Assembly (NCBI GenBank): GCA_902543405.1
Contig: CACBYC010000013.1
Location: 1-38,315, forward strand
DNA: 38,315 nucleotides
Source of the DNA: an uncultured Pelagibacteraceae bacterium
Lineage (GTDB): Bacteria; Pseudomonadota; Alphaproteobacteria; Pelagibacterales; Pelagibacteraceae
Reading direction: 5' to 3'
The stretch's first letter is position 1. The number at the start of each line of letters is the position of its first letter. A program made the translations under genes and the position numbers. Of this stretch, positions 1-19,182 are shown one piece after another. Below the pieces are notes generated by a model. That model was not told the DNA's origin. It made no database searches and saw only the letters and a program-made list of their open reading frames with translations.

Positions 1-5
1 GTCAT
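1..5 (-). CDS. Probable start of the next gene of the transporter operon (window edge)
   Basis: On the minus strand an ATG at 5-3 shares its A with the TAA stop (7-5) of the MalG-type permease, the TAATG coupling also seen inside this operon. An AAAGGA Shine-Dalgarno-like run lies at 13-8. Only the start codon and two further bases are in the window, so the product is unknown; it would be the next gene of the ABC transporter operon. Confidence 0.35.
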
Positions 6-886
6 TATCCTTTAATGGCACCAGCGGTTAATCCACTTATAACTTGTCTTTGAAAAAACATTACTAATAGAAATAATGGAGCTGTAGCAGACACAACTGC
101 AGATACAGCCCACATTAAATTTCCTTCATGCTGATTGGTTCCAAGGTAACTTTGAATTTTGGGAACCATAGTATGGTTCTCTTGGTTTAATAATAAAGCT
201 GTTACAGTAAAGTCATTATAAGCTAACATGAGACTAAACAATCCAGCTGTGATTACCCCAGGCCACATCACAGGCATGATAATATGTCTAAAGGCTTGAA
301 AGTATGAGCAACCATCAATCAAGGCACTTTCATCTAATTCTTTAGGCACAGTTTTAAAAAATGAATAAAGGAGCCATAAAGTAAAAGGTTGATTGATTGC
401 AACAAGAACTACAATAGTGGTTGGTAAAATTCCCCAAATTTGTAATTGAAAAAAAGGAAATAGATAACCTGACACCAATGTTATATGCGGCATTGCTCTA
501 AAAATTAAAGCAATGATTAAAATCCAAAATGCATAATTTTTTGTAGATCTGGATAGTGCGTATGCTCCTAATGTGCCAAGAAATAATGAAATTGAAACAA
601 CACTTATTGTAACTATCACTGTGTTTCTTGAAGCTTTCCAAAATTCACCCTCAAACCAAGCGCCACTGTAAGCTTCCTTTGTAAATCTAGCGCCAGTTTC
701 AATTAAAGTATTAAAAGCTGTTATTGCATACCACCAATCAGCTCTTGAGAAAAAGTCAGCTCTGACTTTAAAGGATCCCCAAAACGTCCAAATAAATGGA
801 AAACATGCAAGTAACAACCATATAACGATAAATATTGTGTTGAAGGTTTTTAAACTGTTTGATTTTTTATCTAATCCAAAATCCAT
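5..886 (-). CDS. ABC transporter permease, MalG/UgpE type
   Basis: Inner-membrane permease subunit of a carbohydrate-type (CUT1) ABC importer. The 293-residue length is normal for the MalG family. Six hydrophobic segments are visible, and the EAA loop that docks the ATPase is seen as ELDESALIDGCSYFQAFRH around residues 185-203. A periplasmic stretch between the first two segments (about residues 36-85) is longer than in minimal permeases. It lies 2 bases after the partner permease, so the two are translated together. Family assignment is firm. The substrate cannot be read from the sequence, and the neighbouring cupin, SnoaL-like and MetE-like genes argue against a plain sugar. Confidence 0.9.
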   Translation of the reverse strand: MDFGLDKKSNSLKTFNTIFIVIWLLLACFPFIWTFWGSFKVRADFFSRADWWYAITAFNTLIETGARFTKEAYSGAWFEGEFWKASRNTVIVTISVVSISLFLGTLGAYALSRSTKNYAFWILIIALIFRAMPHITLVSGYLFPFFQLQIWGILPTTIVVLVAINQPFTLWLLYSFFKTVPKELDESALIDGCSYFQAFRHIIMPVMWPGVITAGLFSLMLAYNDFTVTALLLNQENHTMVPKIQSYLGTNQHEGNLMWAVSAVVSATAPLFLLVMFFQRQVISGLTAGAIKG

Positions 887-888
887 AA

Positions 889-1917
889 TTATCTATTTGT
901 TCTAAACTCTTTCCAAGTTCTCAGTAAAACTGGCGTTAAAATTATTGATATTCCTACAATAGTCATAATCGATGTTGCTGCTGCTGATCCAAATAAAATT
1001 ACTTCCTCATTAACTAAGTTATCATAAATCAACCATGATAAAGATTGGGCACTACCTTCAGCACTAAAACCTATGATGGGTTCAAATACTCTAAAATTAT
1101 CCATTAATGAAATTAAAGCAACAAAGGTAACTACAGGGTATATATGTGGTAAAACTATATGTTTAACTCTTTGAAATCTTGAAGCACCATCTATAATTGA
1201 AGCTTCCAATGGTTCTTGTGGAACAGTTTGAAGTGCTGCATAAAAAACAACAAAAGCAAAAGGGGAGTGATGCCAAACTCCATAAATAATAATTGTAATC
1301 CAAGTTAAAGCTTTTGATGATTTAACAGATAAGTAAGGATCATCCATTAATATTTGAAGATTTGCACCTATAATTCCTTCTGCATCAATCATCCAGAATA
1401 ACACTAGAGAACCTACCAAAGGAGTTACAATCATTGGTAAAATTGTACCAAAAATAAGAGGACCTCTAATTTTTCTAGAAATTGCGTTTAGACTTAGCGC
1501 AATAATAAATCCTAAAAGCAGAACGCACGGTGTAACAATTACACAATAGGTTAAGGTAAATACTAAAGCTTTGTAAAATGGAAGATTTCCTACCTTGCCA
1601 ATAAATTCACCTACTGATTTACTCTCACTCCAAAATTCTGACACTTGATCAGATGCCAAGTGATTTCTATCAATGTATGTACCAAAACCATTAAATTTTC
1701 CTAATGGTTTCTCTTCTTTAATTTTTGAAGTAGCTTCTTGATCTACAACTACTGATGTTTTGCATCCAAATGGATCACATTTTTTAACTTCAATAAGTAT
1801 TTGATCATGTTGAGCGTAAAAAGATTGAATGCCTGTTGAAATAATTGGCAGCCCAATGAATAAAATCATTGCTAATCCTGCTGGGAGAAAAAACCAGAAA
1901 AAACTTCTATTGGGCAT
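889..1917 (-). CDS. ABC transporter permease, MalF/UgpA type
   Basis: Second membrane subunit of the same CUT1 importer, 342 residues. A first membrane helix (about 9-30) is followed by a periplasmic stretch of about 80 residues that contains a CDPFGC pair of cysteines, then the five-helix permease core. The EAA loop is seen as EPLEASIIDGASRFQRVKH near residues 235-253. The large domain between helices 1 and 2 is in the same place as the extra domain of MalF but has no recognisable similarity to it. The gene follows the binding-protein gene after a 51-base gap containing a strong hairpin. Substrate unknown. Confidence 0.9.
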   Translation of the reverse strand: MPNRSFFWFFLPAGLAMILFIGLPIISTGIQSFYAQHDQILIEVKKCDPFGCKTSVVVDQEATSKIKEEKPLGKFNGFGTYIDRNHLASDQVSEFWSESKSVGEFIGKVGNLPFYKALVFTLTYCVIVTPCVLLLGFIIALSLNAISRKIRGPLIFGTILPMIVTPLVGSLVLFWMIDAEGIIGANLQILMDDPYLSVKSSKALTWITIIIYGVWHHSPFAFVVFYAALQTVPQEPLEASIIDGASRFQRVKHIVLPHIYPVVTFVALISLMDNFRVFEPIIGFSAEGSAQSLSWLIYDNLVNEEVILFGSAAATSIMTIVGISIILTPVLLRTWKEFRTNR

Positions 1918-1926
1918 GATAAATAT

Positions 1927-1956
1927 TTAAGTGGGGATAATTATACCCCCACTTAA
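1927..1956 (-). terminator. Intercistronic hairpin after the binding-protein gene
   Basis: A perfect 10-base inverted repeat, TTAAGTGGGG (1927-1936) and CCCCACTTAA (1947-1956), with a 10-base loop, lies between the binding protein and the first permease. There is no clean T-run after it on the minus strand, so it is more likely an mRNA-stabilising or partial terminator element than a full stop. It would give more binding-protein message than permease message. Confidence 0.6.
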
Positions 1957-1968
1957 TTAATTTATATT

Positions 1969-3189
1969 TTATAGAAAACCTTGTTCTTTTGCTTTAGTGA
2001 TATAAGCAGCTTCAACATCTTTTAACGCTTGTTCAGCTGACTCATTTCCTTGCAAAAACTCAACAATTTCACTACCCAAAGCACCATGCATTAATCCCAT
2101 TTGTGGTAACATTGGATAAGGTTTTGCTCCCATTTTAACTGCTTCAATTACTCCGACAGATTTTGGACCAGGCACAAAGCCTTCTACTAACCAAACAGCT
2201 TGATCAGCAGCTTTCGCAACCATCTCTTTTGATGATGCTGCATGAGCCATTGCTCTAAAAGAAGCTTCTGCATCTGCGTCAGATCTATTTTTAGCAAGTG
2301 TAAATCCATCCCACCAAAGTGTTGCTGCAGGAATGTTACCTCCACCAACTGTTGCAGGAGCAACTAACTTAGTAGCAGCAGTTATTTTAGCATCTCCTTC
2401 ATCATCAAGTAATGTTCCAGATCTAGATGCCCATAAAGTCATAATAGCTACGTTTCCTGATTCCCATTCAACTTTAATAGCTTCACTATCATGTGTTAAA
2501 TAATCAGGGTTACTTAAATCAGCTAGTTTTTTTAACATATTTAAAGTTGCAACACCTTTAGCATTATTGATGTTTGGTTGTGCACCACCATCTTTAAAGA
2601 ATTCACCACCATGACCAATGTACATGTTTACAAATTCTTCAGCTAAATTCCATCCAGCTTTATATGCCGCTGCATATGGGTATTTCATTTTTCCAGCTGC
2701 TCTTATTTTTTCAGCAGCTGCTACAACTTCCTCGTAAGTTTTTGGAATAGCAATACCATTTTCTTCTAATACATCTGTTCTTACATAAAGATGTTGTGTA
2801 TTAGCCATAAATGCTACAGCCATTACTTTTCCATCAATTGTAATAAGCTGTGACTCTTGAATTCCTTTTCCATATTTTTTAACTAGATCATTCATTGGTC
2901 TAATTAAATCCGCATTCATTAATGGAACTATAGAACTGTTAGCAGCAACTCTAACTGAAAATTCAGAAGGATTTGCTGTTAAAGCTGGTACTGCAATTTT
3001 GTTGTGTTCAGCTGAGTGAGTGACTTTAAAGTCAGCACTTCCTTTACATTCTTTTGCAGTTTCAACTAAAGTTCTTAGAGCAGGAAAATCATTTGCTAAA
3101 ATATTTATTGATCCACTTTTAATGTTACAGTCAGCGTTAGCTACTGTCCCAAAAAGTAAAAACAATAAAGTAACTAGTATTTTTTTCAT
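1969..3189 (-). CDS. ABC transporter substrate-binding protein, family 1
   Basis: Periplasmic binding protein that captures the substrate for the two permeases downstream. A typical signal peptide covers residues 1-19 (MKKILVTLLFLLFGTVANA, cleavage before DCN). The length of 406 and the overall pattern are those of the SBP_bac_1 (maltose/glycerol-3-phosphate) cluster. Two cysteines soon after cleavage (C21 and C48) could form a disulfide. The gene follows the MetE-like gene after 80 bases that carry a candidate promoter, so it probably has its own start as well as read-through. The ligand is unknown. Confidence 0.9.
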   Translation of the reverse strand: MKKILVTLLFLLFGTVANADCNIKSGSINILANDFPALRTLVETAKECKGSADFKVTHSAEHNKIAVPALTANPSEFSVRVAANSSIVPLMNADLIRPMNDLVKKYGKGIQESQLITIDGKVMAVAFMANTQHLYVRTDVLEENGIAIPKTYEEVVAAAEKIRAAGKMKYPYAAAYKAGWNLAEEFVNMYIGHGGEFFKDGGAQPNINNAKGVATLNMLKKLADLSNPDYLTHDSEAIKVEWESGNVAIMTLWASRSGTLLDDEGDAKITAATKLVAPATVGGGNIPAATLWWDGFTLAKNRSDADAEASFRAMAHAASSKEMVAKAADQAVWLVEGFVPGPKSVGVIEAVKMGAKPYPMLPQMGLMHGALGSEIVEFLQGNESAEQALKDVEAAYITKAKEQGFL

Positions 3190-3205
3190 TTTATTCTCTC
3201 TTTTG

Positions 3206-3232
3206 TTAATATTAATAAGTTTTACTTGTCAA
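3206..3232 (-). promoter_or_regulatory. Candidate sigma70 promoter for the binding protein
   Basis: On the minus strand a perfect TTGACA (3232-3227) is followed after 15 bases by TATTAA (3211-3206), about 17 bases before the ATG of the binding-protein gene. The spacer is shorter than the usual 17 bases, and the region is AT-rich, so the -10 assignment is uncertain. Confidence 0.4.
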
Positions 3233-3269
3233 AAATATACATATACGCTTATGTTTATAAAAGTAAAAA

Positions 3270-4397
3270 TTAGATTAGTTTTGACGCAAGTTCAGCACCT
3301 GCGACAAGTGCTTCAAGTTTTTTGTAAACAATATCTTCATCTACATTTCCATAGCCTGCAAAGGTACTAAATCCACAATCTGTTCCTGCCATTAATTGAT
3401 TTGGCTCAAGTACTCTAGAAAAAGCTAAAATTCTATGTTTTATAACATCTGGGTGTTCTATAAAATTAGAAGTAGACTCAACAACTCCAGGAATAATCAT
3501 CTTATCTTTTGGTACTTTTATATTTTCAAATACTTCCCATTCATGAGCATGTCTAGGGTTAGCAGACTCAATTAAATATTTACTAACATTAGCCTTAAAA
3601 GCTAATCCAATTATTTTATCTAGTCCAATATCATGAGTATGAGGTCCTTCATAATTTCCCCAGCATATATGCATTCTTACTTTAGATGGATCTATATTAG
3701 ATAATGAATTATTTAAAACTTCCACATGTTTGTTAGCTCTTTCCAAAAAATCTTTTTCTGAAATTTCTTTGTAAATCATATGCCTTGATAATGCGAGATC
3801 TGGACAATCAATTTGAATAGATAATCCATTCCCGGTTATTTTCTCATATTCAAACTTCATTATATCTGACAGTTTCTCAAGATACTCATCATCATTTTTA
3901 TAAAACTTGTTGGGTAAAAAATTACATATAACTCCTGGAGATGGAGAATTCATAAATCCATCAGTATGTGAATTTTCTTCTAAGGCATTTTTAAAATTTA
4001 GAATATCTTTGTTAATTGAATCTTCATCTTTTATTTTAAGTTCACTTGTACAACATGGTCTTTTATATGTTGGAGTTCCGCCTGATAGAATAAGTTTTTT
4101 TTTAAAAGATGGAAAATCATCTAAATCTTTTGGAGCTTTTCTCTCACTTTCACCAGAAAAACCATCAACTCTATCTTTTATATAAGTTGCGTAACTTATT
4201 TTTGACATCTCTCCATCACTCACAGAGTCTATTCCTGTATTGATTTGCTTTTTTACAACCTCAGATACATTTTTTTTAACCACTTCATCAAAGCTGATAA
4301 TATCTATTTTTTCATGATTATCTTTAGAAGCAAGAAGAATGGAGAGTTCATTTGATCTTGGTAAGCTACCAACATGTGTAGTTTTTATTTTAACCAT
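3270..4397 (-). CDS. MetE C-terminal-like zinc methyltransferase family protein
   Basis: A 375-residue protein of the cobalamin-independent methionine synthase C-terminal fold (UROD/MetE-like; the family also includes epoxyalkane:CoM transferase). It starts with the family signature THVGSLPR (residues 7-14). Likely zinc ligands are H243 and C245 in RMHICWGN, E278 in YLIESANPRH and C341 in GTDCGF, matching the His-x-Cys, Glu, Cys set of MetE. The separate N-terminal half of full MetE is absent. The start overlaps the stop of the SnoaL-like gene by 8 bases, so they are co-translated. It could transfer a methyl or other alkyl group from the imported compound to a thiol; that is inference from context. 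A plain methionine synthase role is possible but less likely. Confidence 0.8.
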   Translation of the reverse strand: MVKIKTTHVGSLPRSNELSILLASKDNHEKIDIISFDEVVKKNVSEVVKKQINTGIDSVSDGEMSKISYATYIKDRVDGFSGESERKAPKDLDDFPSFKKKLILSGGTPTYKRPCCTSELKIKDEDSINKDILNFKNALEENSHTDGFMNSPSPGVICNFLPNKFYKNDDEYLEKLSDIMKFEYEKITGNGLSIQIDCPDLALSRHMIYKEISEKDFLERANKHVEVLNNSLSNIDPSKVRMHICWGNYEGPHTHDIGLDKIIGLAFKANVSKYLIESANPRHAHEWEVFENIKVPKDKMIIPGVVESTSNFIEHPDVIKHRILAFSRVLEPNQLMAGTDCGFSTFAGYGNVDEDIVYKKLEALVAGAELASKLI

Positions 4398-5358
4398 GGT
4401 TCAATAGTATTTGTTTCCATACAGCAACTTCATCAAATAAAACCCATTCTCTAATAATCGAGTTATTATTAAATTCAGCATGGTTAATACCCATTATAAA
4501 TATTTTTTTATTTGATGCTTTTCCATATTCATCACTTTCATTAGCATGTTCTCCTTCTAAAAACCATCGGACTGACACTCTTGGATTTTGCTTAGGCTCT
4601 TCTAAAAATCCCACATGCTCAATACTAAATTTTATATTTGTGAATATTTTCTTAATGGAATTCCATTTTTCAATAATATCTTCTCTTCCGTGACCAAGTT
4701 TATTTCCTGGCCAAAACAAACTTGCTGCTCTATCATAATCTTTATATTCGTAACTTTTATTAAAAATATTATTTAACACCTGCGTATATTTTTCAGCGAT
4801 TGATCCATCTTTATAACTCTCTGCTTTATAATCTGAATTTTTATCAGAATTGGCATTATACAATTTACTTGAATTTGATACACCTCCTTCTTTTTCAATC
4901 ATTTTTCTAGCAAACTCCTCTGGGGAATAACCAATCTGTCTGACCATTGCCCCTTGATCTCTAACGATCCATTCATCATAAACTTGATTATTCTTACAAG
5001 CACAATCAGCAATAACCCTATAATAAATATCTTTATTAGTGGGTTCACCATAAAAGCCTTTTCCAAGATGAGTTCCTTTGCTTAAAATTCTATGTGATGA
5101 GTGATATCCTATTTCATCATTTCCATTCCAAATAATGTCCTCACCTAATAACTGCCTGTTTGGAAATTCTTTTAAAGTTGAATAGGTGGCATCTATAACG
5201 GCTTTGTTTCCATATGTAACACCAAATGGTGATCTAACAGGTATGTCATTGGTATAAAAGTCACCAATTGACTCAACATCTTTATTTTCCCAAATTTGTT
5301 CTGTGATTTTTAAAATAAAGTCTGGAAAATCTTTATATTTTTTATCAAAACCTCTCAT
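4390..5358 (-). CDS. Tandem SnoaL-like (NTF2-fold) protein, copy A
   Basis: A 322-residue protein with two SnoaL-like domains, roughly residues 10-145 and 185-322, joined by a polar linker. The first contains FPNRQLLGEDIIWNGND, typical of SnoaL-like polyketide cyclase relatives; the second has LFWPGNKLGHGREDI. These NTF2-fold proteins bind or isomerise small organic molecules. I chose the ATG at 5358, which overlaps the stop of the upstream cupin gene as TAATG, over a TTG six codons earlier. A second tandem-SnoaL protein of different sequence lies at 6355-7440, suggesting two steps on related substrates. No exact reaction can be assigned. Confidence 0.75.
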   Translation of the reverse strand: MRGFDKKYKDFPDFILKITEQIWENKDVESIGDFYTNDIPVRSPFGVTYGNKAVIDATYSTLKEFPNRQLLGEDIIWNGNDEIGYHSSHRILSKGTHLGKGFYGEPTNKDIYYRVIADCACKNNQVYDEWIVRDQGAMVRQIGYSPEEFARKMIEKEGGVSNSSKLYNANSDKNSDYKAESYKDGSIAEKYTQVLNNIFNKSYEYKDYDRAASLFWPGNKLGHGREDIIEKWNSIKKIFTNIKFSIEHVGFLEEPKQNPRVSVRWFLEGEHANESDEYGKASNKKIFIMGINHAEFNNNSIIREWVLFDEVAVWKQILLNHG

Positions 5359-6302
5359 TAGATGCTTGATACACAATTAAGATATGAAACTTCACTTTCA
5401 TCAATCTCAATATTAACATTCACACCTAATGGAACTGAAATAGTATCTTTAAAATTTATTTCTTTCGAAAACTTTTCTATTTCAATTTTCCAACTTCCTT
5501 TTTGTGAAAAAAGTATAGTAGGTTTATTAAAAATTAAATTTTCAACTCTCCCTTTTTTTGATTTGAAACAACTCAAACTAAAACCTGTATCTTGTTTTAT
5601 TATTGGATTAATAGACTTATCTTGAAATATGTTTCCTAGTATGTGTGAAATTTTAATATTATCTCCAATATCTATCTCATTTTGAATTCTATTACTGAGA
5701 GTAGATATATTATTTTGTAATTGACCTAACTTATAATTATTAAATTTTTTTATTTCATCATTAGATATAGGTTCTAATAATCTCCTGCCATTTGGTATTG
5801 CTTTAATATTTAGATCTATTAATGAATTATCATCTAAAAGTGCCATGCCTGTCTTTTTTGCTCTCTCTAATACCTCGGGTATCCAAGTGACAATTCCTGG
5901 GTCATCACCTCCTAGTACAACAAAAATTAAGCCTTCTTCATCACCAGCATTTTCAAATGCCCTAAACATATTTGTTGGCATTGAAATAATATCACCAGAA
6001 TTTAAGATTGTTTCATCTTTACCTTCAGATCCCCAATAAAACCTCCATTTACCTGAATAAATTATAAACACTTCTGCAGTTAAATGGCTATGAAGACCTG
6101 ATCCATTAAAGGGCTTTGCTGATACTGCTCCTAAATTAAAACCATGAGGTTCAGATATTTTTATAGATTGGTCTGCATCTTCTGCAACACCTGGGCCTAG
6201 AATTGAATAATTCTTTCTTTCTTTATGTCCATCTAGCTTGCCTTCAACAAATGGTAAAGTACTAGGAATTAAATCTTTAAATTTTGCTAATCTAATATTC
6301 AT
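5358..6302 (-). CDS. Cupin-fold protein, probable bicupin
   Basis: First gene of the minus-strand operon, 314 residues. The N-terminal cupin has motif 1 as GSGLHSHLTAEVFIIYSGKW (H71, H73 and E77 as metal ligands) and motif 2 as GDIISMPTNMFRAFEN (103-118), where the usual third histidine is replaced by R114. The C-terminal half (about 200-314) is beta-rich and looks like a degenerate second cupin without the metal motif. It could be a dioxygenase, isomerase or sensor for the imported compound. It has translational coupling to the SnoaL-like gene downstream and a 52-base divergent promoter region shared with the plus-strand operon. Confidence 0.75.
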   Translation of the reverse strand: MNIRLAKFKDLIPSTLPFVEGKLDGHKERKNYSILGPGVAEDADQSIKISEPHGFNLGAVSAKPFNGSGLHSHLTAEVFIIYSGKWRFYWGSEGKDETILNSGDIISMPTNMFRAFENAGDEEGLIFVVLGGDDPGIVTWIPEVLERAKKTGMALLDDNSLIDLNIKAIPNGRRLLEPISNDEIKKFNNYKLGQLQNNISTLSNRIQNEIDIGDNIKISHILGNIFQDKSINPIIKQDTGFSLSCFKSKKGRVENLIFNKPTILFSQKGSWKIEIEKFSKEINFKDTISVPLGVNVNIEIDESEVSYLNCVSSI

Positions 6303-6354
6303 ATTTTTTTAATTATAATATTGTGATACACGAATATTTCCAACAAATAAATAT

Positions 6355-7440
6355 ATGCAAATAGAACAATTTGATACAGGTCTAAAAACAAAAACAAATG
6401 TAGAGAACATTGTTCTTTCACCAGAAAAAAATTTCCAAAATAAAAATTTAATCCGAGGTCATCTTAATAAAATTATTACATCAGGAGTAAGTGAAATAGA
6501 TAAGAATTTAGAAGAAGCATTTATAACTGATGTAAAGATAAATAGTTTTTATCCTATCAACGAATTTGAAGGACTTAAAAATCTTAAAGAAAAAATCTTT
6601 ATACCTTTATTTGAGGCTTTTCCTGATCTTGAGAGAAGAGAGAATATTGTAGTAGGAGGTGCTTTTAGAGACAAAGTTTTAGTTGGTTCGTACTCAGTAC
6701 TCTCAGGATATTTTATAAAGTCGTGGTTAGGAATAAAGCCAAATTACAAAATGATTAATCTTAGATGTTGTGAAATTCATGAGCTTAAAGAAGAGAAAAT
6801 AATAGAAAGCCATATCTTAATTGATGTTATGGATTTTTTAAGACAGTGTGGTATTTCATCAATAAATCCATCTAGAGGCTCAGAGGGAGCATGGCTTCCA
6901 CCAATGAACACTGATGGAGTAAATTTTTTTGAAAAAGACATAGAGGTTTCAAATGCAAGTTTGAGACAATCATTAACTATGAACAGAAGTTTAAATTTCA
7001 AACCAGAAAAAGAAAACCTTTCAGATAAAGAATTAAAAAAAAGATTATTAAACCACCCTCAAAAAGAATACTGGCATAAAAAAATGATTTGGTATGGACC
7101 ATGTGGAATAGGTACCTCAAGATCACTCGAGGGATTTATTGATATGCATCAGTTACCTTTTAGAAAATCTTTTACTGAAAGAGACTATTATAAACTAGGG
7201 CATTATTGTGAGATAGGAGATGGTAAGTTTTCCTTGTGTGCAGGTTGGCATAGTATAGAAGCATATTACGGTTCAAATGATTGGCTAGGATATAAGGCAA
7301 ATAAGCAAAAATTAACAATGCGTGTTATGGATTTTTACCATCATGATGAGGGAAAAATCCGTGAAAATTGGGTACCAATTGATATACTTCATATACTAAA
7401 ACAAATTGGGGTAGATGTTTTAGAAAAAGTTAAGGGTTAA
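6355..7440 (+). CDS. Tandem SnoaL-like (NTF2-fold) protein, copy B
   Basis: A 361-residue protein with two SnoaL-like domains, about residues 25-170 and 225-355. The first contains FPDLERRENIVVGG followed by the strand ending EEKIIESHILIDVMDFLRQCG; the second ends RENWVPIDILHILKQIG. Both endings match the pattern by which SnoaL-like ester cyclases close (strand, acidic residue, then DhxxxxxQxG). It heads the plus-strand operon and is followed after one base by the transporter ATPase, tying it to transport. It shares domain layout but little direct identity with copy A. The reaction is unknown. Confidence 0.75.
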   Translation: MQIEQFDTGLKTKTNVENIVLSPEKNFQNKNLIRGHLNKIITSGVSEIDKNLEEAFITDVKINSFYPINEFEGLKNLKEKIFIPLFEAFPDLERRENIVVGGAFRDKVLVGSYSVLSGYFIKSWLGIKPNYKMINLRCCEIHELKEEKIIESHILIDVMDFLRQCGISSINPSRGSEGAWLPPMNTDGVNFFEKDIEVSNASLRQSLTMNRSLNFKPEKENLSDKELKKRLLNHPQKEYWHKKMIWYGPCGIGTSRSLEGFIDMHQLPFRKSFTERDYYKLGHYCEIGDGKFSLCAGWHSIEAYYGSNDWLGYKANKQKLTMRVMDFYHHDEGKIRENWVPIDILHILKQIGVDVLEKVKG

Positions 7441-7441
7441 A

Positions 7442-8491
7442 ATGGCAAATATAAAATTTTCTGGAGTACATAAATCATTTGGCTCTAATAAGATTATTAC
7501 AGACTTTAATTTATCAGGTAAAGATGATGAATTTCTAGTATTAGTTGGTCCATCTGGTTGTGGTAAATCAACATTATTGAGAATGATCGCAGGTTTAGAA
7601 AAGATTGATGAAGGTGAAATATTTATAAACGATCAAAAAATTAATGATCTACATCCTTCTAAACGACAAACTGCAATGGTATTTCAATCATATGCACTTT
7701 ACCCACATATGAATGTTTATGAAAATATGTCTTTTGGGTTAAAAATTGAAAAAAAATCTAAGGAAGAAATTCAAACAAAAGTAATGCAAGCAGCTAAGAT
7801 TTTAAAAATTGAGGAGTTATTGGAAAGAAGACCCAAACAATTATCTGGAGGACAAAGACAAAGAGTTGCAATCGGACGTGCTATCACCAGAAATCCAAAA
7901 ATTTTTTTATTTGATGAACCTTTATCAAATTTAGATGCTGCTCTAAGATCAGAAATGAGAGTAGAAATTTCTAAATTACATAATCAAATTAAAACAAATA
8001 TGATTTATGTTACACATGATCAAGTGGAGGCAATGACTCTTGCCGACAGGATTGTAATATTAAACCTTGGTAATATTGAACAAGTTGGTACTCCAGATGA
8101 AATTTATAATAATCCAGCAAATATTTTTGTAGCTCAATTTATTGGAACTCCAAAAATGAATATTTTACCTTTAAACAATGAAAATATTATCTCAGAAAAT
8201 AAAATTAAGTTTTTGGGTAATCAAATTATTTTTGAAAAAACTAAATTTGACAAAAAAAAATATTTTTTGGGAATAAGACCAGAGCATTTTAATTTATCTA
8301 ATGAATCACAATTTAAATTTAAACCTAAAATTGATCTTGTTGAAAATTTAGGAAATGAAAAGATTGTATATATGAGTAACGATAACTTAGAGCTTAGTGC
8401 AAAAATTTCTAGTCAGGAAGATTTTCAAAATCAGATAAATTTTGATTCCAAAGATATTTTTATTTTTGACGAAAACGGAAGAAGAATTTAA
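7442..8491 (+). CDS. ABC transporter ATP-binding protein, MalK/UgpC type
   Basis: ATPase that powers the CUT1 importer encoded on the opposite strand at 5-3189. Walker A GPSGCGKST is at residues 36-44, the Q-loop at FQSYALYPHM, the signature LSGGQ at 134-138, Walker B IFLFDEP at 154-160, and the switch histidine in YVTHDQVEAMTLADR. A C-terminal MalK-like regulatory (TOBE) domain occupies about 235-349, containing LGIRPEHF. It is the only nucleotide-binding subunit near the permeases. Its placement with the second SnoaL-like gene makes the two divergent operons one functional unit. Confidence 0.92.
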   Translation: MANIKFSGVHKSFGSNKIITDFNLSGKDDEFLVLVGPSGCGKSTLLRMIAGLEKIDEGEIFINDQKINDLHPSKRQTAMVFQSYALYPHMNVYENMSFGLKIEKKSKEEIQTKVMQAAKILKIEELLERRPKQLSGGQRQRVAIGRAITRNPKIFLFDEPLSNLDAALRSEMRVEISKLHNQIKTNMIYVTHDQVEAMTLADRIVILNLGNIEQVGTPDEIYNNPANIFVAQFIGTPKMNILPLNNENIISENKIKFLGNQIIFEKTKFDKKKYFLGIRPEHFNLSNESQFKFKPKIDLVENLGNEKIVYMSNDNLELSAKISSQEDFQNQINFDSKDIFIFDENGRRI

Positions 8492-8518
8492 ATTTTCTTT
8501 AAGTAATAATAATTTAAT

Positions 8519-9418
8519 ATGAATTGGATAGTTGTTACAATTATTGCAGCCTTTTTTCAGAACTTAAGGTCTTCATTTCAAAAAAAAATTAATAAAGATG
8601 TCTCAACTATAGCATCAACTTATGTAAGGTTTTCTTTTGCTCTACCATTAGCATTAGTATTATTTTTTATTTATTTCAGAGATATTAATGTAATTTATGA
8701 CGTAATTAATCAGCCTGGTTTTTTAATAAATGTAACTTTAGCATCAATTTTTCAAGTAATATTTACATTTGTCTTATTATATCTTTTTAAGTTTTCAAAC
8801 TTTGTTGTTGGTACCTCTTTAAGCAAAACAGAAGTTGTACAAGTTGCAATATTTGAATATTTTATACTTAATGAAAAGCTAAGTAAATTAGGAATAAGTG
8901 GAATTATAATTTCTACATTAGGAGTTATAATATTATCTATTAAAGATTTAAAATTATTTTTACAAAATATATTTTCAAAAACTACATTAATAGGTTTAAT
9001 ATCAGGATTATTTTTAGCTTTAAGTATTGTTTATTTTAGATCTGCTGCATTATCTTTAGAAAACTTCAACTCAAACTTTGAAAAAGTAATAACAACTTTA
9101 TTATTTGGACTTTTGATACCAACTATAATTTTAACTATTTATCTTCTATTATTTGAGAAAAACGAATTTATAAAACTTTATAACGATAAATACGATTGTA
9201 TGTTAATAGGGGTTGGTGGATTTTTTGCATCTTTATCTTGGTTTTATGCATTTACATTAATACAAGCTTCATTCGTTAGGGCGGTTGGGCAAATCGAATT
9301 ATTATTCAGTTATTTTTCCTCAAGATATTTCTTCAAAGAAAAAGTAAGAGTTACAGAGATAATTGGTATAATAATATTTGTTTTTGGAGTTACAATTTTA
9401 CTATTTTCTAGAATCTGA
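8519..9418 (+). CDS. EamA/DMT family transporter
   Basis: Ten-helix membrane protein of 299 residues made of two EamA repeats (about 1-140 and 150-299), the drug/metabolite transporter architecture. It starts 27 bases after the ATPase gene and is probably the last gene of that operon. Members export or import small metabolites; here it could export a product of the SnoaL/cupin/MetE-like module. The specificity cannot be seen. It ends 5 bases before the oppositely directed HisD-like gene. Confidence 0.85.
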   Translation: MNWIVVTIIAAFFQNLRSSFQKKINKDVSTIASTYVRFSFALPLALVLFFIYFRDINVIYDVINQPGFLINVTLASIFQVIFTFVLLYLFKFSNFVVGTSLSKTEVVQVAIFEYFILNEKLSKLGISGIIISTLGVIILSIKDLKLFLQNIFSKTTLIGLISGLFLALSIVYFRSAALSLENFNSNFEKVITTLLFGLLIPTIILTIYLLLFEKNEFIKLYNDKYDCMLIGVGGFFASLSWFYAFTLIQASFVRAVGQIELLFSYFSSRYFFKEKVRVTEIIGIIIFVFGVTILLFSRI

Positions 9419-9423: not shown

Positions 9424-10710
9424 CTAATTTTGAAACCCATATTTTCTTAGTCTAACATCTCCCGTTCTTGCATGTGCCTCCATACCCTCATATCTTGAAA
9501 TTCTAGCACACGCTGCACCTACTTCTTTGGTTGATTCCTTAGTCATTCTTTGAAAGCTTAAAGTTTTAATAAATTTTCCTACAAATAAACCACCTGTATA
9601 TTTTCCTGCACCTTTTGTTGGTAAAATATGGTTTGTTCCAGAACATTTATCTCCATAAGCAACTGTAGTTTCTTCACCAATAAATAATGATCCATAGTTT
9701 TTTAATCTATCATGAAACCATTGAAGGTTTTTAGTTTGTATCTCTAAATGTTCGGGAGCATATTCATCACTGATTTTAGCCATTTCTTCGTCTGTATCGC
9801 ATAAAATAACTTCTCCATAGTCTCTCCAAGCTGCACCAGAGTTTTCTCTTGGTAAGTCTGGTAAATCAGCAATTAATTCTGGTACTCTTTTCATTACATA
9901 TTCAGCTAATGATTTACTAGTAGTAAATAACCATGCAGGAGAGTTGTAACCATGCTCTGCTTGTCCGACTAAATCGAAAGCAACTAATTCTGGATCAGCT
10001 GTTTCATCTGCTATAACTGCAATTTCTGTAGGACCAGCAAATAAATCTATACCTACTTTGCCAAATAAAATTCTTTTTGACTCTGCAACAAATTGATTTC
10101 CAGGACCAACAAGCATATCTGCAGGAGCATTTCCAAATAGGCCATAAGTCATTGCAGCAATAGCCTGAACACCACCTAAATTCATTATTACATCTGCTCC
10201 ACATAAATCTGCAGTGTAAACTATGGCAGGATGAACTCCAACCCCAGGTTTTGGTGAGCTGCAAACAATAATATTTTTAACACCAGCAACTTTAGCTGTA
10301 GTAACACTCATTACTGCAGAAGCAATATGAGCATATCTTCCTGCAGGTACATAACATCCAGCCGTATTAACTGGAATTAATTTTTGTCCAGCAAATAAAC
10401 CATCAGAGAGCTCTACCTCAAAATCTTGGCCATAATTTTTTAATTGTGCTTCAGCAAACTTTCTTACTCTTTCATGAGAGAATTGAATGTCATCTTTCGT
10501 TTTAGGATCTAAATTTTTTTTAATTTGTTCAATTTTTTCTCTTGTAACAATTACTTCTCCTTCATATTTATCAAATTTTTTTGATAATTCGATGCATCCT
10601 TTTTCTTTTGTTTTCTCTATGTCCTTTAAAATGTTCTCTACAATCTCTCTTGTTTTTGAATCATCAGTTGAAGATGTTTTAGGTGATTTTTTTAAATAAT
10701 TTATTGCCAT
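9424..10710 (-). CDS. HisD-family dehydrogenase, HpsN-type (sulfopropanediol 3-dehydrogenase-like)
   Basis: A 428-residue NAD-dependent zinc dehydrogenase of the histidinol dehydrogenase fold. The zinc set is intact (Q250 and H253 in VGQAEHGYN, D354 in YGDKCSGTNH, H413 in MEAHARTGDVRL), as is the catalytic pair E320-H321 in YAPEHLEIQ. The MAINYLKK start and HARTGDVRL ending resemble the HpsN paralogues that oxidise 2,3-dihydroxypropane-1-sulfonate to sulfolactate, rather than biosynthetic HisD. No other his genes are nearby; a phosphotransacetylase-like gene precedes it by 41 bases. HpsN is my best guess at function. True HisD, or another polyol oxidiser, remains possible. Confidence 0.8.
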   Translation of the reverse strand: MAINYLKKSPKTSSTDDSKTREIVENILKDIEKTKEKGCIELSKKFDKYEGEVIVTREKIEQIKKNLDPKTKDDIQFSHERVRKFAEAQLKNYGQDFEVELSDGLFAGQKLIPVNTAGCYVPAGRYAHIASAVMSVTTAKVAGVKNIIVCSSPKPGVGVHPAIVYTADLCGADVIMNLGGVQAIAAMTYGLFGNAPADMLVGPGNQFVAESKRILFGKVGIDLFAGPTEIAVIADETADPELVAFDLVGQAEHGYNSPAWLFTTSKSLAEYVMKRVPELIADLPDLPRENSGAAWRDYGEVILCDTDEEMAKISDEYAPEHLEIQTKNLQWFHDRLKNYGSLFIGEETTVAYGDKCSGTNHILPTKGAGKYTGGLFVGKFIKTLSFQRMTKESTKEVGAACARISRYEGMEAHARTGDVRLRKYGFQN

Positions 10711-10751
10711 GTTTAAATCTTAATTTAATTATTTTTTTTTTCAATATTCAT

Positions 10752-11663
10752 TTAGTCCAAAGCTACCACAGCTGCAGCAATAGAAGCTAGTCTTGCTGTC
10801 GCATCATCTGATCTGCTTGTAATTACCACAGGAACTTTCCCTCCTATAACCACACCTGCCGCACATGCACCCATAAAATAAATCATCATTTTAACAAGGG
10901 CATTTCCTGTTTCAACGTTTGGAACTAGTAATACATCGGCGTCTCCAGCTACTATATTTTGAATGCCTTTTATCTCTGCTGATTTTTTTGATACACTATT
11001 ATCAAAGGCAAGAGGGCCGAATATATCTGCATTTAAATTTTCTTTCTCAGCTAATTTACATATTTCTTTAGCATCAATTGAGCTTTGCATGCTATCTAAA
11101 ACCTCTTCTGTTGCAGACAATATAGAGACTTTAGGTTTTGCAATTTTAATTCTATGACAAAAATCAACTACATTTTTCAGAATATGCATTTTTGTTTTAA
11201 CATTTGGATTAACATTTAAAGCTCCATCAGTTATTATTAATGGTTTATCTTCTTTGTCTAAAGTCATATGCCAAATATGACTCAATCTTTTTTTACCAAT
11301 CAAATTATATTTTCGTAACAAAACTTCTTTCATTAAAATATCAGTATGTATATGACCTTTAACAATTATTTTTACTTCTCCATCTCCAGCAAGCTTTGCA
11401 GCAATTTTAGCAGTGTTATTTTCAACTGTCTCATTTATTATTTCATATTCAGAGATATCGAATTTTAAATCTTCCGCAGTTTTTTTAATTTCTATTTCAT
11501 CACCTATTAAAACAGGAATAATTAATTTTTCTTTCACGGAGTCCATTACAGATAGCATGGGAAGTCTTTTGCCTGCATTTACAATTGCCGCTTTAGCTCC
11601 TCTTTTTTGGTGAGCGATATCAAGTAAATTGATAGGACAAACTGTTGATTTATCTGAAAGCAT
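10752..11663 (-). CDS. Phosphate acetyl/butyryltransferase family protein
   Basis: A 303-residue protein of the Pta/Ptb family, which exchanges acetyl (or butyryl) groups between phosphate and CoA. The family C-terminal core is seen as ADVLLVPNVETGNALVKMM and GGKVPVVITSRSDDATARL (about residues 243-290). The N-terminal regulatory domains of long Pta enzymes are absent. No acetate kinase is nearby. In sulfonate catabolism a lone Pta converts the acetyl phosphate released by sulfoacetaldehyde acetyltransferase to acetyl-CoA; with the HpsN-like gene downstream that is an attractive but inferred role. Confidence 0.8.
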   Translation of the reverse strand: MLSDKSTVCPINLLDIAHQKRGAKAAIVNAGKRLPMLSVMDSVKEKLIIPVLIGDEIEIKKTAEDLKFDISEYEIINETVENNTAKIAAKLAGDGEVKIIVKGHIHTDILMKEVLLRKYNLIGKKRLSHIWHMTLDKEDKPLIITDGALNVNPNVKTKMHILKNVVDFCHRIKIAKPKVSILSATEEVLDSMQSSIDAKEICKLAEKENLNADIFGPLAFDNSVSKKSAEIKGIQNIVAGDADVLLVPNVETGNALVKMMIYFMGACAAGVVIGGKVPVVITSRSDDATARLASIAAAVVALD

Positions 11664-11715
11664 TGAATTTATATATACTAAAATAATAAAAAAACTAATA
11701 TACTATTGTTGATAT

Positions 11716-11729
11716 AAGGATAAATAGTG
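11716..11729 (+). promoter_or_regulatory. Shine-Dalgarno and GTG start of the BASS transporter
   Basis: AAGGA at 11716-11720 sits 6 bases before GTG at 11727. This decides for the GTG start; there is no in-frame ATG nearby upstream. Confidence 0.7.
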
Positions 11730-12575
11730 GAAGTAGTTACTAAAATAGCTCCGATCGCTCTAGCTCTTATAATGTTAGGTCTTGGATTAGGATTAACGGG
11801 ACGCGATTTTTTAAGAGTAATCAATAATCCTAAAGATTTTATAATCGGCTTTATCTGCCAATTGATACTTTTACCAATAGTTGCATTTATAATTGTATTA
11901 ATATTAGATTTGCCAATTGAAATTGCTGTAGGCGTTATGATTATAGCTGCAGCTCCTGGTGGAGTAACATCAAATGTAATGACAAAATTTGCAAATGGAG
12001 ATGTTGCATTATCAATCTCATTAACCGCTATAATAAGCCTGATTAGTATTATTTCTGTTCCTTTTATTATTTTTAAATCAGCAAATTTATTGGGAGTTAC
12101 AGATATATCTTCTGATATCACCATGACTGGCATTGCATTAAAAATGGCTCTAGTTGTTACAGTGCCTGTTATTTTAGGAATGATTATAAGGAAATTTGCA
12201 GAAAATTTTGTTTCTTCAAATATTTCTATAATCGAGAAAATCACAACTTTATTATTTGTAATTGTTTTTGCAACAATATGGATTGAAGAAAGAGAGAATA
12301 TACTCAATTACTTAAAACAAGCGGGTTTTGCTGTTCTTGTACTTAATATTATCATGATGGTACTTGCATATTACATAGCCAAGTTATTAGCCACTGGCAT
12401 AAAGCAAAGAAAGTGTATTTCAATTGAGTGTGGACTTCAAAATGGCACATTAGCAATATTTGTAGCTACACAAATATTTAGTGACATTAGTTATATTATA
12501 CCAACAGCAGCATATGCTCTGATTATGTATTTAACTGGCTTTATAATGATTTTTATACTTAGAAGATCTACTTAA
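11727..12575 (+). CDS. BASS-family (bile acid:sodium symporter) transporter
   Basis: A sodium-coupled transporter of 282 residues with about nine or ten hydrophobic helices. Family features are the GLGLTGRDF segment after helix 1, AAAPGGVTSNVMTKFANGDVALS (about residues 70-92) and IECGLQNGTLAIFVATQIF (about 230-248), which build the crossed-helix sodium sites. BASS proteins carry bile acids (including sulfonated ones), pyruvate and other organic anions. It is divergent from the phosphotransacetylase and HpsN-like operon across 63 bases, so a sulfonate or short organic acid is plausible. Its 3' end overlaps the regulator gene by 8 bases tail to tail. Confidence 0.88.
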   Translation: MEVVTKIAPIALALIMLGLGLGLTGRDFLRVINNPKDFIIGFICQLILLPIVAFIIVLILDLPIEIAVGVMIIAAAPGGVTSNVMTKFANGDVALSISLTAIISLISIISVPFIIFKSANLLGVTDISSDITMTGIALKMALVVTVPVILGMIIRKFAENFVSSNISIIEKITTLLFVIVFATIWIEERENILNYLKQAGFAVLVLNIIMMVLAYYIAKLLATGIKQRKCISIECGLQNGTLAIFVATQIFSDISYIIPTAAYALIMYLTGFIMIFILRRST

Positions 12576-13518
12576 TATTTATTTGTTCAAATATCTTAAA
12601 GATTAAATAAGAAAGTGAGATTACATTTTTCTCCTGCAGTTTAATGGTATCAGATAAAGCTTTATCTTGCATGTTAACATTAAACAGTTTTTTTTTATTA
12701 ACACTTATATATTTATTTTTTAGCAAAAAATTTAATTTTCTAACAACAGTTGGTCTTGGAATATGAGTTATTTCTGAAATTGACATGGTATTTACACCAG
12801 TTTCAGGAACTATTATTTTGTTCTTTTTCCACTTTGAAAAGTTCCATCCATTAGCTTCATAAGATTTAGTAACAAGTGAATGCCACATTATAACCATTCC
12901 AACTGAAAATATTTCAAGATCTCCCACTTGTTTTTTCCATCTATTTGTAAAAATAAAAACAAAATCTAAGAAAAAATACCAACAATATGTGAAATTATTT
13001 TTAATTTCATTTGAGATTTCATCAAATTGCCTAGATTGATTAATTAAATTATTTTTTTCACACAACTCAGCAATCTTTGAAAGCAATGCACATAAATTTT
13101 GAAGAGTATTTTTAGGTTGAACCAGTCTAAAAGCCGATCTATCGATATATATCTTTTTGCCAATTTTTTTTAGTACACCAAATTCTTCTAAGCGAAGAAT
13201 TTTTCTTCTAGCACTCTCCTTGGGAATAATTAAATTTTTTGATATTTCAATAATATTTATTCTGTCTAGTTCTAATGATTTATCATATAAGAAAAAAGTA
13301 TCATAACTTTCTACAAGTCCATTTTGGAAATAATAATCAAAATCTTTATTTATAAGATAAAGAATTATTAAATACTTATCTATGTCTTGAAATGTTTCAT
13401 AGGATGAATTAGTCCATTCAGACAATAACTTGTAGTAAAAGGGAGCTATTTCATCAAAATTTTCTACAATAACTTTTTGAATTTTGTTTTCACTTAATAG
13501 TGACGAGTTTTTACTCAT
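12568..13518 (-). CDS. Putative transcriptional regulator with two winged-helix domains
   Basis: A 316-residue protein of no family that I can name. Two helix-turn-helix/wing units of similar wording are visible: residues 87-130 (INIIEISKNLIIPKESARRK, then a GVLKK..KKIYID wing) and 244-281 (TMSISEITHIPRPTVVRKLN, then a YISVNKKKLFNV wing). Both have an IS-I-x(4)-IP-[KR] start and an RK-[IL] recognition helix, which suggests internal duplication. A middle region (140-225) rich in aromatic residues could bind a ligand or form the dimer. Its promoter carries several copies of an ACCCATTTYRGACA motif, as expected of an autoregulated DNA-binding protein. Regulator status is inferred. Confidence 0.65.
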   Translation of the reverse strand: MSKNSSLLSENKIQKVIVENFDEIAPFYYKLLSEWTNSSYETFQDIDKYLIILYLINKDFDYYFQNGLVESYDTFFLYDKSLELDRINIIEISKNLIIPKESARRKILRLEEFGVLKKIGKKIYIDRSAFRLVQPKNTLQNLCALLSKIAELCEKNNLINQSRQFDEISNEIKNNFTYCWYFFLDFVFIFTNRWKKQVGDLEIFSVGMVIMWHSLVTKSYEANGWNFSKWKKNKIIVPETGVNTMSISEITHIPRPTVVRKLNFLLKNKYISVNKKKLFNVNMQDKALSDTIKLQEKNVISLSYLIFKIFEQINIK

Positions 13519-14287: not shown

Positions 14288-15292
14288 CTATTTCAATAGA
14301 ACACGAATATCCTCCATGATATTATCTGGAATTTTAATCTCAGATTTATAATTTTTTTTAAATCTTCTTAACTTGTTTTCTCCTGGATATAATATTTCTT
14401 TAAGTCCTTTTAATTTAGGAAGTTTTTTAATTCTTTTTATGTTTTCTTTTATTCTTTTTTTATAATTAGATTGAAATAAGTTTGCTTTCATCACAATGAA
14501 TAAATGACCAATATTTTGTGGGCCAGAAAAATCATCAAAAGGATCTTTCACTTTCCCACCGTGATTACCCCCTGTGTAAACACCACTTAATATATCGACC
14601 ATCCATGCAAGTCCTGATCCCCTAAATCCAGCTATAGGAAGTTGAACACCTTCAAGTGCTTTTTTAGCATCTGTTGTTGGATTACCAAATTTATCCAAAG
14701 CAACTCCTTCAGGAATTTTTGAATTTGATCTTGATGCAACTCTAATTTTTCCTCTATTAATCATAGAGACAGATGTATCCAATATAAATGGAACTTTAGA
14801 ACCAGTTGGCGATCCAAAGCAAATAGGGTTTGTGCCAAACAAAGATTTTATAGCACCATGTGGAGCAATAGCAGGCGGTGCATTAGTGAATACTAAAGCT
14901 ATCATGTTTTTTTTTACAGCTTGTTCAGCGTAATATCCCGACATTCCGTAATGGCCACTGTTTTTTACAGCGACCAATCCTATCCCTGTTTTCTTAGCAT
15001 TTTTTATGGCTTTTTTTATAGCTGAATCTGCAGCAACGAAACCAATGCTGTCATCGGCATTTATATGGGTAACAGATTGGGAAATATTTTTTAGTTTGAT
15101 TTTAGGTTTTGGGTTAATCAGTTTTTTTTTAATACGATCACAATACATTTTTAATCTTGATAATCCATGGGTTGGGGCACCTACTAACTCTGCATTAATT
15201 ATTGCTTCAGCACATATTTGTGAATGTTTTTTTGAAAGTTTATGTTTTTTTAATATTTCAATTATTATTTTTTTAAGTTTGTTTTTGTGCAT
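14288..15292 (-). CDS. Ldh2/malate-lactate/sulfolactate dehydrogenase family oxidoreductase
   Basis: A 334-residue NAD(P)-dependent 2-hydroxyacid dehydrogenase of the Ldh2 fold, unrelated to Rossmann-type lactate dehydrogenase. Family landmarks are GAPTHGLSRL (about residues 38-47), NSGHYGMSGYYAEQA (about 111-125), FGTNPICFGSPT and the GFRGSGLAWMVD segment near the C terminus. Members act on malate, lactate, ureidoglycolate or (R)-sulfolactate (ComC). The start directly follows the stop of the epoxide hydrolase (TAAATG), so they are one operon. The exact substrate is open; the sulfonate genes in this window make sulfolactate worth testing. Confidence 0.85.
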   Translation of the reverse strand: MHKNKLKKIIIEILKKHKLSKKHSQICAEAIINAELVGAPTHGLSRLKMYCDRIKKKLINPKPKIKLKNISQSVTHINADDSIGFVAADSAIKKAIKNAKKTGIGLVAVKNSGHYGMSGYYAEQAVKKNMIALVFTNAPPAIAPHGAIKSLFGTNPICFGSPTGSKVPFILDTSVSMINRGKIRVASRSNSKIPEGVALDKFGNPTTDAKKALEGVQLPIAGFRGSGLAWMVDILSGVYTGGNHGGKVKDPFDDFSGPQNIGHLFIVMKANLFQSNYKKRIKENIKRIKKLPKLKGLKEILYPGENKLRRFKKNYKSEIKIPDNIMEDIRVLLK

Positions 15293-16444: not shown

Positions 16445-16447
16445 CAA

Positions 16448-18141: not shown

Positions 18142-19182
18142 ATGTTTATTAAAAAAATTTGTAAGTCATTACTTACAGTAATTGCAGTTACTTTCTTTGC
18201 TCAGGCAGCGTATGCAGAATTAACTCTGAAGCTTGGGACAACTGGTAGATTAGGTATGCCAATTGGAGATGCTATAGATCAAGCGCTTATACCAGCTATG
18301 GAAAAAGCATCTGGTGGTAAAATGAAAATCGAACCACATTATCAAAGAAGCTTATGTGCAGAACAAAAATGTGGAGAACAAGCCAACCAAGGTCTTATAG
18401 CTCTATGGACTAGTTCTACAGCAAACTACGGTAACTTTGGACCAGAGTTAGCAATTTTTGATTTGCCTTTCATTTTTAAATCACTGGAAGATGCAAAAAG
18501 AATATCAGATGAATGGTTAGCTGAAAGACAGTGTAAGCTCGCACTTGAAAATGCCGGTCATATTTGCCTTTCTGTTTATTCAAGTGGTGGATTTAGACAA
18601 CTTGGAAATGCAACTAAACCAGTTCATGAACCTGATGATATGAAGGGACTAAAATGGCGTACTACAAAAAGTCCAGTTGAGTTCATGCTAGTTAAAAATT
18701 GGGGTGCAACTCCAACGCCTTATGACTGGAGCCAATTATATCAAGGTCTACAGTCGGGTGTAGTTGAAGGCCAGTATGTAGCATCACCTTGGCAGCATGT
18801 TGCAAAACTTCATGAAGTTGCTAAGTATTTCACAGAGATTGGTGGAATGTGGTCAGGAAACATTTTAGCAATGGACGCAAAACAATATAATGCATTGTCT
18901 GATCAACAGAGAAAATGGTTACACCAGGCAGCTGATGCTTATGGAGAAAAAGTAAACGAGTTAGACAACGCTTGGATTAAGAATGGTGAAGATGCAATTA
19001 AAGCATCTGCTAAAGAATGGTATGTACCAACAGAAGCGGAAATGACTAAGTGGAGAGCGGGCGCAATTGGTGCTTGGTTAGACGCTAAAGGTACTTTTGA
19101 ACCAGAAGTAGCCAAAAGAGTTCTTATGGAACAAGGCATGGATGGATTTGTAGCTCAGTTAGAGGCAGCTGGGGCTCTGTAA
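18142..19182 (+). CDS. dctP: TRAP transporter substrate-binding protein, DctP family
   Basis: Periplasmic receptor of a sodium-driven TRAP transporter, 346 residues. A signal peptide covers 1-25, cleaved at AYA-ELTL. The conserved arginine that binds the ligand carboxylate is R173 in GLKWRTTKSP, so the substrate is probably an organic acid. Four cysteines (C72, C77, C131, C142) in the mature protein are unusual for DctP and may form disulfides. An AAAAGGAA Shine-Dalgarno-like run precedes the ATG. The 206-base gap upstream shared with the aldehyde dehydrogenase holds the divergent promoters but no clear consensus that I can defend. Confidence 0.9.
   Translation: MFIKKICKSLLTVIAVTFFAQAAYAELTLKLGTTGRLGMPIGDAIDQALIPAMEKASGGKMKIEPHYQRSLCAEQKCGEQANQGLIALWTSSTANYGNFGPELAIFDLPFIFKSLEDAKRISDEWLAERQCKLALENAGHICLSVYSSGGFRQLGNATKPVHEPDDMKGLKWRTTKSPVEFMLVKNWGATPTPYDWSQLYQGLQSGVVEGQYVASPWQHVAKLHEVAKYFTEIGGMWSGNILAMDAKQYNALSDQQRKWLHQAADAYGEKVNELDNAWIKNGEDAIKASAKEWYVPTEAEMTKWRAGAIGAWLDAKGTFEPEVAKRVLMEQGMDGFVAQLEAAGAL

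Follow-up and report, generated by a model that had tools for sequence, protein, structure and literature searches.

SAR11 bacteria are among the most abundant marine heterotrophs, and what they import is a central question. The locus described here raises it in a specific form: which compound does its importer bring into the cell, and what do the enzymes encoded beside that importer do with it? The locus lies at bases 5-9418 of contig CACBYC010000013.1 (assembly GCA_902543405.1) from an uncultured Pelagibacteraceae bacterium. The window that was analysed is this whole contig, 38,315 nucleotides of a 1.13 Mb genome that is 82% complete. Genome size, base composition and gene content point to a SAR11 (Pelagibacter-type) bacterium. 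We propose that the locus encodes an import-and-processing module for a methylated substrate, with a compound of the gadusol or mycosporine type as the best fit, and we give this statement as a whole a probability of roughly 0.4.

A reading made from the DNA letters alone (the sequence-only reading) had described nine open reading frames of named families in two divergent operons 52 bases apart, and all of these are present. The minus strand carries, by coordinate, permease 2, permease 1, the receptor, the MetE-like gene, SnoaL-1 and the bicupin; the plus strand carries SnoaL-2, the ATPase and EamA:

5-886, minus strand: CUT1 permease 2 (BPD permease); its stop overlaps the start of a HAD-fold gene
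889-1917, minus strand: CUT1 permease 1 (BPD permease)
1969-3189, minus strand: receptor (SBP_bac_1)
3270-4397, minus strand: MetE-like protein (Meth_synt_2), a catalytic domain without the folate domain
4390-5358, minus strand: SnoaL-1, a tandem NTF2/SnoaL protein (SnoaL plus SnoaL_2); overlaps the MetE-like gene by 8 bases
5358-6302, minus strand: bicupin (Cupin_2), with invariant H71, H73, E77 and R114
6303-6354, no strand: divergent intergenic region of 52 bases between bicupin and SnoaL-2
6355-7440, plus strand: SnoaL-2, a tandem SnoaL protein (SnoaL plus SnoaL_2)
7442-8491, plus strand: UgpC-class ATPase of the importer (465 bits, cut-off 432)
8519-9418, plus strand: EamA (Pfam family match)

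The second SnoaL_2 match of SnoaL-2 is below the Pfam cut-off (22 versus 27 bits). The start of SnoaL-1 is most likely the ATG at 5358 and not the TTG at 5376, because its relatives begin there. An Rfam scan gave no match at gathering thresholds.

Co-occurrence was scored in 197 genomes from the order, and 20 relative loci were fetched for gene order; all module carriers belong to one genus, so the sample is phylogenetically narrow. The receptor was found in 36 genomes, the MetE-like protein in 36 and SnoaL-2 in 34. At least one of the three occurs in 37 genomes and all three in 32. Because the receptor and the MetE-like protein share 35 of the 36 genomes in which each is found, the genes are not together by chance. 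Five incomplete carriers (G056, G058, G074, G167 and G179) have partial matches or matches near a contig start. The order permease-permease-receptor-MetE-SnoaL1-cupin / SnoaL2 is kept in 19 of the 20 loci, the remaining one being cut by a contig end. The right flank varies among them (EamA, ATPase, inserted genes): the ATPase follows SnoaL-2 in ten loci, is absent there in nine, and one locus ends with its contig. Six carriers without a local ATPase have other UgpC-class ATPases. The module's own ATPase had been taken as the only one available to the permeases, which holds locally; elsewhere in the same genome there is a second of the UgpC class (C11:14974, 447 bits). The receptor is 89-100% identical across its 36 genomes of one genus and therefore probably has one defined ligand, which it offers for identification; the enzymes drop to 60-71% identity in more distant loci. 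For five genes, each compared in six pairs, rough dN/dS estimates stayed under 0.3, with dS near saturation. The genes almost certainly form one functional unit. The SnoaL, cupin and MetE-like genes travel with the transporter in SAR11-like genomes, as the sequence-only reading would have it, and other marine Alphaproteobacteria repeat the association in a homologous operon.

The window's module (5-8491) is a short form of that larger operon. A tblastn search of plasmids with the MetE-like protein led to Roseobacter operons that begin with UgpC, receptor, two permeases, a short SnoaL, HisD, SnoaL-2 and SDR genes and continue with LacI, SnoaL-1, cupin, MetE-like, alpha/beta hydrolase and RraA genes; in two Ruegeria, divergent SnoaL and amidohydrolase genes lie at the operon. 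Identities between the window and Ruegeria conchae are 50% for the receptor, 54% and 65% for the permeases, 52% for the MetE-like protein, 43% for SnoaL-1, 30% for the cupin and 30% for SnoaL-2. A scan of named genomes with SnoaL-1 gave at least 466 relatives, of which the best 80 loci were kept. Among the 72 of these 80 that exceed 15 kb, with families counted at 38% identity or more, the importer genes occur in 68-71, SnoaL-2 in 70, cupin in 69, HisD in 69, SDR in 68, MetE-like in 65, RraA in 63 and the hydrolase in 55. The operon is also found in culturable Roseobacters (Ruegeria, Phaeobacter italicus, Leisingera and Tateyamaria), which gives a place to find the ligand. Three loci from other families of the class (L075-L077) encode MetE-like proteins 62-64% and SnoaL-1 proteins 50-51% identical to those of the window, together with an operon-type HisD, and two of them also have RraA- and SDR-like genes. 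Very probably the module and the larger operon serve a common catabolic pathway.

The closest solved structure to the operon HisD is sulfopropanediol 3-dehydrogenase (384 bits), an enzyme that oxidises a C(OH)-CH2OH group. A sulfonate substrate, which this likeness brings to mind, is not favoured because no sulfite-releasing enzyme is annotated in the Roseobacter operons viewed, no profile search having been made for one. Variants in Roseibium, Alloyangia, Novosphingobium, Pantoea and Martelella plasmids (L096, L097, L100, L102 and L187) have a second HisD, and an amidase gene beside a SnoaL gene.

The MetE-like protein bears most directly on a methylated substrate. Its residues H243, C245, E277 and C341 match the zinc ligands of MetE structures in alignment and are invariant in 12 SAR11 sequences, and S11, E63 and D197 align with homocysteine-site residues of MetE as they are listed by Price et al. 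(PMC7857596). The best NCBIfam methionine synthase score is 94.6 bits against a cut-off of 406, and the protein falls below all such models. With the zinc and homocysteine residues kept and the folate domain missing, a thiol acceptor is likely, as is a donor other than methyl-tetrahydrofolate (methyl-THF); judging by these residues, the acceptor is probably homocysteine. Relatives 45% and 42.5% identical are encoded on plasmids of Croceicoccus marinus and Novosphingobium pentaromativorans, respectively. In both plasmids the neighbouring genes encode syringate O-demethylase (840 and 850 bits against a cut-off of 800), methylene-THF reductase (MetF), FolD, PurU and protocatechuate 4,5-dioxygenase. 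These clusters are a second methyl-ether setting of MetE-like proteins. Such syringate/vanillate O-demethylation clusters of Sphingomonadales share with the module the MetE-like protein (45%) and an NTF2-like neighbour, but they have a THF-dependent O-demethylase (DesA/LigM) and the module has none. Because the residues are kept, the folate domain is lacking and relatives stand beside syringate O-demethylase genes, we consider it rather probable that the substrate's methyl group passes to homocysteine through the MetE-like protein, in a homocysteine-dependent demethylation. This suggests a zinc methyltransferase that would bypass folate and make methionine directly from methyl groups carried by dissolved organic matter. 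The folate-independent core methionine synthases MesA-MesD (PMC7857596) have the same single catalytic domain with zinc and homocysteine residues, but the module's gene sits in an import and catabolic operon and its product scores under the methionine synthase cut-offs. For the latter reason an assignment to the MesD/MesX type was not adopted; no search for MesX was made.

In Marinovum algicola plasmid pMaD9 (L067:14800-18915) the operon lies close to genes annotated for dimethylsulfoniopropionate (DMSP) demethylase and DMSP breakdown. A class I S-adenosylmethionine (SAM)-dependent methyltransferase gene lies inside the operon in 23 of the 72 long loci (L104-L183). In Ruegeria AD91A this gene stands between the cupin and MetE-like genes, which puts a methylase beside a putative demethylase.

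The model of SnoaL-1 has a tandem NTF2/SnoaL fold (pLDDT 91; PF07366 above cut-off), with SnoaL-type cyclases at Z 15-17 and limonene epoxide hydrolases at Z 14-15 as its nearest structures. Each half thus has the fold of these polyketide cyclases and hydrolases (Z 14-17), but SnoaL-1 is a tandem fusion in a catabolic operon and is only 7-20% identical to them. The cupin model is a bicupin (pLDDT 89) with oxalate decarboxylase and quercetinase at Z 21-23. Seed storage proteins score nearly as high and fill the list of matches, so the fold alone does not set the reaction. Cupin dioxygenases of the quercetinase and ARD type have a 3-His/1-Glu metal motif. The bicupin departs from it: across 22 sequences H71, H73, E77 and R114 do not vary, and R114 stands at the fourth ligand position.

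The receptor, the two BPD permeases and the MalK/UgpC-type ATPase supply all parts of a CUT1 importer. They belong to the same families as the components of CUT1 importers of the Ugp/Mal type; unlike in those systems, the importer's neighbours are not sugar kinases or glycosidases, and the receptor and both permeases are far under every NCBIfam equivalog cut-off.

The lower part of the pathway was addressed by a census of loci with a core of cupin, hydrolase and aldolase. The census covered 164 loci and excluded three overlapping duplicates, L069, L071 and short match loci; its probes were reference genes, so that unrelated replacement genes would escape detection, and its two genome sets may overlap. 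For models, 31 of 102 SnoaL-1 and 22 of 97 cupin sequences were chosen. Of 40 listed places, 20 were fetched at this stage, some of the others having been covered before, and nine of the 20 (L204-L212) held other cupins without the core. The core occurs with importers of several kinds (CUT1, TRAP and MFS). Among 84 core loci, 77 have HisD only, mostly in related Rhodobacterales, four have OtnK (3-oxo-tetronate kinase) only and none has both; the three with neither (L115, L119 and L192) may be truncated at contig or record boundaries. The OtnK loci are in Ensifer adhaerens NER9, Vibrio pelagius, Salinivibrio kushneri and Thioclava electrotropha. The four OtnK assignments are firm (456-570 bits against a cut-off of 350). 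OtnC from Ensifer falls slightly short of its threshold (240.8 versus 250), and OtnI from Thioclava does not reach its own (279 versus 325). In these four loci the acid-sugar pathway through 3-oxo-tetronate (OtnK/OtnC/OtnI) stands in for HisD beside the same core, whereas neither the 20 SAR11 loci nor the 80 named loci yielded an OtnK match. The alternation of HisD and OtnK fits a branched C7 ring acid that is split into pyruvate and a C4 unit.

The MetE-like gene is present in 60 of 78 core loci that bear SnoaL genes and in one of six (L193) that do not, and is thus not essential to the core everywhere. L193 combines a TRAP transporter with HisD, SDR, cupin, MetE-like, hydrolase and RraA genes, and this pairing in the absence of SnoaL indicates that the MetE-like gene belongs with the core. 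The relatives of the hydrolase include PcaD, and those of HpcH include 2-dehydro-3-deoxyglucarate aldolase. The operon RraA keeps R128-D129 in eight sequences. By motif, not by structure, this is the counterpart of the Arg-123/Asp-124 pair of a known RraA-like aldolase, for which PMC5065237 gives 4-carboxy-4-hydroxy-2-oxoadipate as a substrate.

From the co-inheritance, gene order, homologies, folds, key residues and operon partners we infer both the substrate and the individual reaction steps. The CUT1 ABC importer would take up an organic molecule bearing a methyl group, and the MetE-like zinc protein would move that group to homocysteine, making methionine. The SnoaL proteins may carry out hydrolysis or carbonyl chemistry on a ring or side group, and the metal-binding bicupin would act on the demethylated core. 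In the larger operon, the HisD-type dehydrogenase, the SDR, the PcaD-like hydrolase and an RraA or HpcH aldolase would finish the breakdown to central metabolites. The sequence-only reading had suggested uptake of a methylated or cyclic molecule followed by dealkylation or ring chemistry; residues, relatives and operon partners lend this partial backing, pointing to methyl removal and to ring or keto chemistry as plausible activities.

As to the substrate class, we tentatively favour C7 cyclohexenones of the gadusol or mycosporine (sunscreen) type. The mycosporine cores 4-deoxygadusol and gadusol are C7 cyclohexenones with a ring O-methyl group, a reductone-like 1,2,3-oxygenation and a C(OH)(CH2OH) carbon. 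SnoaL proteins, with an amidase in some loci, would free the amino acid from the mycosporine ring; the ring O-methyl group would pass to homocysteine through the MetE-like protein, and HisD would oxidise the CH2OH group. The bicupin and the hydrolase could then open the reductone ring, oxidatively and between C1 and C2, to 4-carboxy-4-hydroxy-2-oxoadipate, which the RraA or HpcH aldolase would split into pyruvate and oxaloacetate. Where HisD is missing, gadusol would instead yield pyruvate and 3-oxo-tetronate, the OtnK substrate. Free cores of the gadusol type are acids and would suit TRAP transport. It is this fit of the chemistry, which is not a demonstration, that places the sunscreen reading above other methylated cyclic compounds. 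The SAR11 form probably imports the compound and removes the methyl group, gaining methionine, and perhaps removes an amino-acid side group; the remaining skeleton would be either passed to enzymes encoded elsewhere or released. It is possible, though we put it forward with reserve, that SAR11-type and other marine Alphaproteobacteria share an undescribed pathway of gadusol or mycosporine catabolism. No description of the gene set or of a bacterial mycosporine pathway was found among the matches listed in the open-access literature, preprints not being covered. Were the substrate of this type, the operon would represent a bacterial sink for algal sunscreens.

Several results weigh against this proposal. 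The bicupin has an arginine where the second cupin motif usually has a histidine, and RraA scores 27 bits against cut-offs of 179 and 304.5 for 4-carboxy-4-hydroxy-2-oxoadipate aldolases. The OtnK loci number just four and most of the HisD loci are related to one another, and OtnI, which lies beside OtnK in three loci, also suits a 2-oxo-tetronate route. A MetE-like gene was not seen in 18 of the 78 SnoaL-bearing core loci. In SAR11 itself, operon-type HisD, hydrolase, SDR and RraA or HpcH aldolase genes were not detected in any of the 20 loci, and RraA was found neither in the window's genome nor in five non-carriers and in only one of 15 other carriers (one of 16 in all). HpcH is present in 16 of 16 carriers but also in three of five non-carriers and is therefore uninformative on the lower steps.

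Among the alternatives, the one that survives best, although we hold it to be unlikely, is a methylated or unusual sugar, a uronate or an O-methyl inositol degraded by a non-phosphorylative route. An SDR would form a lactone, the hydrolase would open it, cupin and SnoaL proteins would isomerise or dehydrate the product, and RraA or HpcH would split a 2-keto-3-deoxy acid. A CUT1 importer with a LacI regulator is typical of sugar systems, OtnK and OtnC belong to acid-sugar metabolism, HpcH has the dehydro-deoxyglucarate aldolase relative named above, and an RraA-family enzyme acts in the breakdown of alginate sugars according to PMC8563752. Yet no sugar kinase or glycosidase is annotated within the Roseobacter operons viewed; sugar pathways do not usually involve tandem SnoaL proteins, amidases or a MetE-like methyltransferase; and the alternation of HisD with OtnK calls for a branched C7 acid, not a linear sugar acid. 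We regard as quite improbable another methylated cyclic or aromatic compound (a methoxyaromatic, a methylated aminocyclitol or an arsenosugar-like molecule), whose ring the cupin would open and which would go through an aldolase step, on the pattern of protocatechuate 4,5-cleavage. In its favour are the PcaD kinship of the hydrolase and the syringate O-demethylase and protocatechuate dioxygenase genes that neighbour relatives of the MetE-like protein, but the O-demethylase and dioxygenase of those clusters are absent from the module, and a CUT1 importer and HisD would be unexpected for aromatics. Very unlikely is a MetE-like protein that serves as the organism's methionine synthase (a core MetE with another methyl donor) beside an unrelated importer: it is the sole PF01717 match in the 82% complete genome and its homocysteine residues are intact, but it occurs in 36 of 197 genomes of the order, together with the receptor and SnoaL genes, and elsewhere it is encoded within a catabolic operon. 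An accidental patchwork at a variable site, to which the changing right flank and the presence of the adjacent HisD in non-carriers might point, is hardly credible, given that 19 of 20 loci keep one gene order and that a single Ruegeria conchae operon holds these families at 30-65% identity.

Turning to the borders of the module, the sequence-only reading had grouped the SnoaL, cupin, MetE-like and transporter genes correctly, but it wrongly included EamA and missed a HAD-like gene at the contig end. EamA (8519-9418) is rejected as a member, being found in just four of the 20 relative loci. The HAD-fold gene belongs to the module: 19 of the 20 loci have it immediately after permease 2, and it adjoins a homologous module in L077, a locus from a different family in the class. 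The window shows no more than its start (bases 5-1, minus strand), overlapping the permease 2 stop (TAATGA) before the contig ends. Copies with the HAD_2 fold lie at L033:5029-5685, L037:3210-3845 and L045:5108-5752 (all minus strand) and at L077:15829-16428 (plus strand). HAD proteins usually have the catalytic motif DxD. In the four sequences examined it is replaced by FGSIGT, and the protein is possibly non-catalytic.

The HisD gene at 9424-10710 was likewise not adopted as a member, since it has a wide distribution and belongs to a different subfamily from the operon HisD; it is probably outside the module, though it may have a part in the pathway. At E 1e-160 this type occurs in 113 of 197 genomes, 33 of 37 carriers versus 80 of 160 non-carriers, so that it is enriched in carriers, in which it usually lies next to the module. 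Its product is 46-50% identical to operon HisD proteins and up to 59% identical to a HisD that L084 encodes outside the operon; it is closest to sulfopropanediol 3-dehydrogenase (539 bits). Within the genus it exists in two forms about 73% identical. This HpsN-like HisD, a PTA_PTB transferase and an SBF-family transporter (9424-12575) adjoin the module. They are followed by a 316-residue protein (12568-13518) with no Pfam match at E 0.001 and relatives 42-95% identical in neighbouring loci. Farther on, an Ldh_2 dehydrogenase, an alpha/beta hydrolase of the epoxide-hydrolase-N (EHN) type and an aldehyde dehydrogenase are encoded in one run (14288-17935), next to genes that resemble those of a TRAP transporter in sequence (18142-21071).

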